From: Paenibacillus aceti
GTDB lineage: Bacteria > Bacillota > Bacilli > Paenibacillales > Paenibacillaceae
Length of the DNA: 64,000 nt
Reading direction: 5' to 3'
Assembly: GCF_003614185.1 (NCBI RefSeq)
Contig: NZ_KZ987724.1
Coordinates: 830,771 to 894,770 of the forward strand
Under the pieces are notes generated by a model. That model was not told the origin of the DNA and did not search any database. It saw nothing but the letters and a program-made list of their open reading frames with translations. The translations under genes were made by a program, and so were the position numbers. The stretch's first letter is position 1. Each line of letters starts with the position of its first letter. Below, piece after piece: positions 16,207 to 54,335 of this stretch.

Positions 16207-16231
16207 GTGAGCGATACTCCGTTTCGTTAGA
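16207..16231 (-). repeat. Solo 25-bp box (TAACGAAAC family)
   Basis: On the minus strand this reads TCTAACGAAAC-GGAGT-ATCGCT plus CAC, matching the box consensus TCTAACGAAAC-N5-ATCGTTATT at all of the first 11 positions and most of the right half. The other members are at 27337-27523 and 54149-54335. A local hairpin CGGAGT-7 nt-ACTCCG overlaps it. No second box at the 50-bp spacing is visible here. Confidence 0.6.
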
Positions 16232-23993: not shown

Positions 23994-24191
23994 TTAATAA
24001 AGCGACTCTATAAATTTAACCTCTGACAGCATGAATGTAACAAGCTTGCTGCACATGGTTCCGTATTTGTGAAGTTCATCAATCGGTACATTGCTTCTAA
24101 AACAACAAAAGCCCTGCCTCTCTTTCGTCCTTGCGGCTCCGATGACCGCTCCAGTGTGAATCAGAAATTGCTCAAACGTTCCGTAAACTCA
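23994..24191 (-). pseudogene. Possible decayed coding remnant (64 codons, no start)
   Basis: On the minus strand a frame without stops runs from 24188 to the stop at 23994-23996 and reads like protein (for example GAVIGAARTKERQGFCCF and SNVPIDELHKYGTMC). It has no start codon with a ribosome site, and a stop immediately precedes it. A frame of this length is not very unlikely by chance. I do not recognise the sequence. Confidence 0.2.
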
Positions 24192-27336: not shown

Positions 27337-27523
27337 TGTAACGAAACTAGGTATTGCTATTTGGGCTAAAAGGAGCGATTTCAAAATCTAACGAAACAGG
27401 GTAGCGCTATCGGGATCAAACAAGGGCTAAATGGCCGATTTCTGCCGAAATAGCGCTACTGAGTTTCATTAGATTTGAGTTGGGGCTGATTTTGTGAAAA
27501 TAACGATATGGAGTTTCGTTAGA
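27337..27523 (+). repeat. 187-bp four-box palindromic element, copy A
   Basis: Four 25-bp boxes of consensus TCTAACGAAAC-N5-ATCGTTATT: direct at 27337-27361 and 27387-27411, inverted at 27449-27473 and 27499-27523. The gaps are 25, 37 and 25 bp. Box variants: the two inner ones share GTAGCGCTAT. Copy B at 54149-54335 has exactly the same layout. Many boxes can also fold on themselves (TAACGA...TCGTTA). It lies between the dut terminator and dpaA and contains no gene. Confidence 0.85.
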
Positions 27524-54148: not shown

Positions 54149-54335
54149 TCTAACGAAACTACAGATCGTTATTTCACCAAAAACAGTGGCAAAGAAAATC
54201 TAACGAAACACCATATCGTTATTCTGGAGAAATTCCTGCATTGAGCTGCTCATTTGCTTAAATAACGATGTCTAGTTTCGTTAAAATTTTTAGCGGCCTT
54301 TATTAGGCTGAATAGCGATATCCTGTATCGTTAGA
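54149..54335 (+). repeat. 187-bp four-box palindromic element, copy B
   Basis: Boxes of TCTAACGAAAC-N5-ATCGTTATT at 54149-54173 and 54199-54223 (direct) and at 54261-54285 and 54311-54335 (inverted). The gaps are 25, 37 and 25 bp, identical to copy A at 27337-27523, while the gap sequences differ. It lies between the rny terminator and ymdB, accounting for nearly all of that 312-bp gap. Confidence 0.85.

Follow-up and report, generated by a model that had tools for sequence, protein, structure and literature searches.

The window, i.e., the whole 64-kb stretch of Paenibacillus aceti DNA analyzed here, carries two copies of an element built from four boxes. In copy A (27337..27523), the 21-bp cores of the boxes lie at 27339..27359 (box 1, + strand; the 25-bp box spans 27337-27361), 27389..27409 (box 2, +, 50 bp past box 1), 27451..27471 (box 3, -, inverted, 62 bp past box 2), and 27501..27521 (box 4, -, inverted, 50 bp past box 3), with two, two, three, and zero mismatches to the pattern TAACGAAACNNNNNATCGTTA, respectively. 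Those of copy B (54149..54335) lie at 54151..54171 (+), 54201..54221 (+), 54263..54283 (-, inverted), and 54313..54333 (-, inverted); the first three match TAACGAAACNNNNNATCGTTA without mismatch and the fourth has two. Judged by the coordinates of these cores, both copies have two direct boxes followed by two inverted ones, at start-to-start distances of 50, 62, and 50 bp, just as the initial annotation described them. Two of its finer observations can also be read directly in the sequence: the inner boxes of copy A (2 and 3) carry the GTAGCGCTAT variant, and four of the eight boxes (A4, B1, B2, and B3) contain a perfect TAACGA/TCGTTA stem. A single box on the - strand (16209..16229; two mismatches to TAACGAAACNNNNNATCGTTA) is probably the remnant of an element. 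Each copy is preceded by a terminator-like sequence. Elsewhere in the window, positions 24092-24179 (+) match the sRNA family BsrC in Rfam (RF01410; 69.9 bits, gathering score 38).

Copy number and context in the genome of the window

Hereafter, G000 denotes the genome of the window, other G numbers related genomes, and L numbers loci. Allowing up to three mismatches, TAACGAAACNNNNNATCGTTA gave 12 matches in the window compared to 0.38 expected, with none of 100 shuffles reaching 12, and 495+499 matches across G000 compared to 18+28 for the pattern read backwards. Chance is excluded by these differences (12 vs 0.38 in the window; 994 vs 46 in the genome). From 464 kb of sequence, made up of the window together with 20 stretches each 20 kb long, nhmmer recovered 12 full and three partial elements. 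The geometry was to be considered accidental if boxes were mostly isolated with random spacing or if there were no more copies, and these elements speak against that; isolated or half elements do also occur (16209 in the window, L056, and L068). A finder that tolerated spacings of 44-56/56-68/44-56 returned 11 elements from the same 464 kb, all 11 at exactly 50/62/50, and the twelfth element of the sample, L066, is spaced 50/63/50. Similarly, loci L002-L031 (n = 30; 29 chosen by BLAST and L031 by pattern) yielded 29 quadruples, 26 at 50/62/50 and three at 50/61/50. In a BLAST search with copy A, the best 40 of 217 candidate genome places comprised copy A itself and 39 others that were 75-86% identical. 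Based on the genome match count and the 464-kb sample, we estimate that G000 contains roughly 150-250 four-box elements, mostly intergenic. When 11 of its elements were compared with their own consensus, differences were present at 8 of 396 sites in the box core TAACGAAAC and 298 of 1089 in the spacers.

The elements examined were intergenic in 40 of 42 cases (a set in which four loci are counted twice), and the other two overlap short predicted frames. They occupy tandem gaps in 23 cases, convergent gaps in 11, and divergent gaps in 6, compared to 111, 32, and 44 for background intergenic gaps; this gene context disfavors promoter-bound regulation. We also considered single boxes outside elements as operators of a regulator gene, a reading we rejected given that their surroundings look like remnants. 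A strand bias of the boxes, hinted at among the matches listed first, was likewise dropped. A second dispersed family is present in G000, namely hairpin-like CCTGCA...TGCAGG boxes, often in inverted pairs, around many four-box elements (e.g., in the flanks of L007, L011, L017, and others). Ends of extended flanks resembling GGCTGTTGA...TCAACAACC are also common in this genome.

Distribution and constraint among relatives

Among 41 genomes of the genus, four are box-rich (G000, G011, G031, and G032), each with at least 188 TAACGAAAC-type boxes, and G008 contains 22 boxes of a TAACGAAGC-like variant. Copy number differs strongly between close species. In the relatives' loci, 53 of 60 quadruples are spaced 50/62/50 and the others are off by one or two bases. 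Pairs of TAACGAA 49-51 bp apart were detected in 180 of 395 Paenibacillaceae genomes and 16 of 19 genera, and the TAACGAA and TAACGGA dialect patterns were each detected in 16 of the 19 genera sampled; for both counts, single matches can be chance, as judged from control columns. In the scan of named genomes, whose species include P. taichungensis, P. lupini, P. cisolokensis, and Cohnella xylanilytica, four heptamers occurred together over 182-183 bp in at least 19 among at least 118 stretches. The direct, direct, inverted, inverted layout at 50/62/50 therefore recurs in the family with diverged boxes. Across 20 elements from outside the four box-rich species, the strongest conservation is in TAACGAA and TAT(T), approximately 12 bp apart, and the within-box palindrome is not kept; thus, the box is bipartite and palindromy is not general.

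The elements also vary in number of units. Whole modules form tandem arrays in G032 (e.g., five 220-bp units), and single box-plus-spacer units have been added in phase in G000 (L111), G032 (L105), and G011 at the site of copy B. In G045, G046, G055, G056, and G068, TAACGRA boxes run head-to-tail every 51 bp without an inverted half (e.g., G046:C12:117413-117827). No four-box element was found in the intervals of G011, G031, and G032 orthologous to that of copy A, and the orthologue of copy B is present in G011 (with five boxes) and G032 and absent from G031. The orthologous intervals are rearranged, and neither a target-site duplication nor a clean empty site was found. At L307 in G011, in the interval before the element, a repeat of about AGTTCAAAAAGTC ... 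GACTTTTTGAAC surrounds or contains the four-box element.

We compared elements at orthologous sites matched by synteny. Of 23 such pairs, one (L312-L330; spacer identity 0.62) did not enter the rate calculation, and the remaining 22 comprise 21 among G011, G031, and G032 and one with G000. Only pairs spaced exactly 50/62/50 on both sides were used, which left out L319, and where G032 has an array, we chose the copy closest to its partner. The G011 loci derive from BLAST matches, which favor intact boxes on the G011 side; their partners were found by synteny. Across the 22 pairs, which are not independent since several loci were used two or three times, TAACGAAAC differed at 5 of 792 sites (0.6%) and spacers at 434 of 2178 (20%; Fisher p = 3e-63, box core vs spacer). 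The N5 within the boxes differed at 65 of 440 sites (0.148 per site), position 19 at 20 of 88, and ATCG.TA at 23 of 528. The corresponding values in non-orthologous pairs were 0.006 for TAACGAAAC, 0.052 for ATCG.TA, 0.461 for position 19, 0.523 for N5, and 0.461 for spacers. This disparity between TAACGAAAC and spacers in orthologous pairs shows purifying selection acting on the boxes in situ. Gene conversion from other copies is disfavored as the source of box identity, because the N5, which lies between two constrained parts, drifts like the spacers.

We also compared 27 intervals, all of them two-sided. A whole element was present in 21, nothing or a deletion remnant in five, and one was unplaceable; among the 21 with a whole element, 13 aligned gap-free, six had gaps summing to zero, and two had gaps that did not. 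In these relatives, selection therefore acts on both the bases and the spacing of elements at fixed loci. The initial annotation had proposed selection on, or dispersal of, the whole element, and both are supported by the fixed geometry, the box constraint at orthologous sites, and the absence of copy A in three relatives.

A candidate partner protein and its match to box dialects

Clustering of the open reading frames near boxes (1557 frames from 255 loci) revealed a small family whose members adjoin elements in G031, G009, and P. lupini. This family (four loci) was one of 25 clusters listed and not the largest; clusters above it in size corresponded to sets of orthologues or to common families. 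The candidate partner is a protein of approximately 218 aa with a DUF559-like domain and a C-terminal winged helix. Its representative P0001 (218 aa) had no match above cut-off in Pfam or NCBIfam and none better than E 0.02 in PADLOC, and gave weak winged-helix matches in PHROGs and PDB, with the PDB sequences matching the winged helix only. No relative was found in viral contigs. P0001 has homologues in 302 of the 395 genomes, many of which encode several.

Four-box elements were present in 22 of 30 best-hit loci, of the TAACGAA type in 16 and the TAACGGA type in six, the latter also spaced 50/62/50; paralogues from six chosen genomes added TAACGGAC, TAACGGAA, TAACGGTT, and TAACGAAT elements. 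For loci encoding a protein at least 50% identical to P0001 (n = 84), a stricter 8-base matching detected a four-box element in 47 and none in the examined flanks of 37, compared to 7 of 60 random windows of G000, itself an element-rich genome. In a separate set of 47 loci with a readable element beside the partner gene, the nearest such element was downstream in 45, comprising 30 of 30 in the training set and 15 of 17 among later loci. The surroundings of the partner gene are common to G031 and G011 on both sides and shared with G032 on one.

More distant paralogues connect the family to DUF559. Two of six scanned reached the PF04480 cut-off of 20.6 (L404, 22.9 bits; L410, 20.9 bits), scores for L399, L412, and L415 were below it, and the distant paralogues share a D...E-I-x-G..H pattern. 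No Pfam match to DUF559 was detected in the four-box-linked proteins P0001, L179, L393, and L402, nor in a reading of L035 that begins inside the domain. The DUF559-like domain probably belongs to the PD-(D/E)XK nuclease superfamily, whose active site has the form D...(E/D)-x-K. At the active-site position, eight distant paralogues have E-x-K and the 84 closer proteins have E-x-Q or E-x-H. All 47 four-box-linked proteins thus have Gln or His in place of the expected catalytic lysine, and the eight Lys-bearing paralogues lack a four-box element. A nuclease role of the four-box-linked proteins is therefore doubtful, and the substitution suggests that cutting, if any, would differ from that of a normal enzyme of this fold. 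The paralogues that keep the lysine, including L399, L404, L410, L412, and L415, have no TAAC-type four-box element in the examined flanks. Approximately 400 bp downstream of a 31%-identical paralogue, locus L403 (G008) contains a TAGCTGGA four-box element at 51/62/51, possibly a distant dialect.

The recognition helix of P0001 (RISDQYTRR) carries Gln at a residue that tracks base 6 of the box: across all loci, Arg occurs with TAACGG in 23 of 23 cases and Gln with TAACGA in 14 of 14. Offset readings of the repeat underlie five of these 23 Arg cases; when they are excluded, Arg goes with G in 18 of 18. Five duplicate loci were removed before counting, and L399 (CAATTGCAA) and L403 (TAGCTGGAT, 51/62/51) are uncounted, having no base-6 call. 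In the training set of 55 loci, 30 with a readable element, Arg was paired with G in 14 of 14 cases and Gln with A in 11 of 11; Ala, His, and one Asn went with A, whereas G accompanied a second Asn and also one locus whose residue was unreadable. The code hypothesis was set down before 40 later loci were read. Among the 17 of these that were readable, all nine Arg cases again had G (four of them through an offset reading) and all three Gln cases had A, three Thr and one Pro went with A, and the Ser of L457 (G294) accompanied a TAACGCAAC element with C, a third base at position 6. The association of Arg vs Gln with base 6 gave Fisher p values of 2e-7 for the training set and 0.005 for the later set, from counts that are not independent because the loci are related. 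Arg-G and Gln-A are textbook base contacts.

The same pairing is apparent on the protein tree and in whole genomes. Visual inspection of a 91-protein tree places Gln-A in the L035/L398/L400 group, the L361-L364 group, and one large weakly supported group, consistent with at least two and probably three switches to Gln-A. We tabulated dialects for two genera (g4 and g8) using the best-match paralogue per genome. Eight g4 genomes with Gln-type best matches contained 34-72 TAACGAA pairs and 0-1 TAACGGA pairs. In g8, the thirteen genomes whose match was Arg-type contained 0-2 TAACGAA pairs, and their TAACGGA pairs numbered 4-44 in nine and 0-1 in four. G256 (g8, Gln) had no exact pair of either dialect and one-mismatch TAACGAA boxes near its gene.

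G000 itself encodes three homologues. One (L393) is 53% identical, has Arg at the recognition residue, and is followed downstream by a TAACGGAC-type element; the other two are distant. No close Gln-type homologue was found despite its many TAACGAAAC elements. Copies A and B are therefore probably orphaned members of the four-box family, and elements can persist without such a partner. The largely intact boxes in G000 may reflect recent loss of the partner, another partner, or residual function. G081 (17+15) and G098 (13+10) likewise contain the TAACGAA pattern, yet are not among the 302 genomes with a homologue.

A proposed two-part repeat system and its alternatives

These comparisons of sequence make it likely that the four-box element and the approximately 218-aa DUF559-like/winged-helix protein are the DNA and protein halves of a repeat system in the Paenibacillaceae that has two parts. 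The winged helix would bind each box, the step in which we have most confidence, with Arg or Gln reading base 6. Several subunits would assemble on the fixed 50/62/50 scaffold, as suggested by the constraint on spacing. With less confidence, and by analogy with RAYTs, which are thought to spread REPINs, the protein-DNA complex may have spread the element through genomes; bound elements may then have become useful to the host, so that their boxes stay intact, and a chromosome-structural role would fit element placement best. We consider it about as likely as not that, more broadly, this is a new class of bacterial interspersed repeat found throughout a family, in which a degenerate nuclease-like winged-helix protein is joined to a four-site DNA platform with paralogue-specific dialects and a one-residue/one-base code, and in which selection at numerous chromosomal sites maintains the repeats as working binding stations rather than debris.

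Of the alternatives, a host regulatory or chromosome-organizing system survives best, as a possible though distinctly less probable reading. The winged-helix protein would be non-mobile, the elements dispersed operators or anchors, and their copies products of ordinary duplication and recombination. Such a system accords with the constraint on boxes and spacing at fixed sites, the replaced catalytic lysine, the vertical position of the partner gene in G031 and G011, and the tandem arrays, which could arise by recombination; it accords poorly with the strong copy-number differences between close species, the lack of a counterpart of copy A in three relatives, and a placement without promoter preference. 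An ordinary MITE of some other transposase, with the DUF559-winged-helix gene merely a frequent neighbor, is unlikely: it leaves the match between residue and dialect and the downstream linkage unexplained, and boxes are constrained after insertion, even if the copies are lineage-specific and the layout resembles the IR/DR ends of Tc1-like transposons. We consider a defense or self-marking system more improbable again. There, a nuclease-like protein would recognize the cell's own DNA by the elements and cells losing boxes would suffer, in keeping with the nuclease-related fold assigned to paralogues and with the state of the boxes in the compared intervals, where they are intact or have been deleted; against this, no PADLOC family scored above noise, the lysine is replaced in four-box-linked proteins, and G000 elements persist without a close Gln-type partner.

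An RNA or paired-stem element (terminator, stabilizer, or small RNA) is very improbable. The boxes and the whole element are imperfectly palindromic, copies A and B follow terminator-like sequences, and the initial annotation had suggested that boxes 2 and 3 pair. At variable positions of 121 elements, however, canonical pairing did not exceed shuffles for boxes 2 and 3 (0.360 vs 0.373), and the covariation check that it proposed for boxes 1 and 4 had a similar outcome (0.371 vs 0.413). Rfam gave no match at four-box elements, and the within-box palindrome is not retained in other species, so we rejected a structured RNA family. The earlier interpretation thus stands for selection, dispersal, and the lack of a described family, and is not supported for the pairing of inner boxes. 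Identity with the REPIN/RAYT system, which the dispersed, mostly extragenic, inverted arrangement, the dialects, and the repeat-flanked gene might suggest, has almost no probability, being contradicted by the lack of compensatory pairing and of any PF01797 (Y1_Tnp) match at E <= 0.001 in six element-bearing relatives (G009, G011, G031, G032, G036, and G037; 10 matches in G000; up to 10 candidates scored per genome).

The proposed two-part system matters in that many bacterial interspersed repeats have no known partner, and in this case one can point to a protein, to the residue and the base involved in recognition, and to a rigid geometry. Why genomes keep such repeats therefore becomes directly testable, including whether the partner moves the repeats and what keeps the boxes intact. 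It also offers an initial clue to a protein family that is multi-copy, is present in 302 of 395 genomes, and has no name in the libraries searched.

In line with the initial view that no described family has this layout, neither Rfam nor the open-access literature yielded one, and no description of the element-protein pairing was found in open-access text. The consulted parts of the P. vortex genome paper count 184 global repeats and do not describe the four-box family (PMC3012674), and a term search found no mention of Paenibacillus in the main text of a survey of palindromic repeats (PMC3733652). Among protein families, DUF559 (PF04480) is the closest, as distant paralogues reach its curated cut-off and share D...E-I-x-G..H; the four-box-linked proteins differ in having Gln or His for the lysine. 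Tc1-like transposons and MITEs with IR/DR ends have two direct sites per side in inverted orientation. The four-box elements share this arrangement and lineage-specific copies, and are unlike them in that the gene-element units have no known transposase, no target duplication was found, and boxes are conserved in place. BOX elements of Streptococcus pneumoniae (PMC3049150) are small, intergenic, and modular, with inner units that vary in number, and we know of no cognate protein for them. Four-box elements are similar in this modular, intergenic build with variable inner units and differ in sequence and layout. The REPIN/RAYT system consists of REP doublets and REP-associated tyrosine transposases, with dispersed extragenic inverted repeats flanking the gene, according to the sections consulted (PMC3116915, PMC3733652). 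By that account, the two systems share tandem clusters, repeat variants that match gene variants, and the presence of the repeat next to its partner gene (here at 47 of the 84 loci of close homologues); they differ in that REPINs are hairpin doublets, whereas the present elements set four sites on a fixed scaffold without a pairing signal, beside a partner gene of another family that combines a DUF559-like domain with a winged helix.
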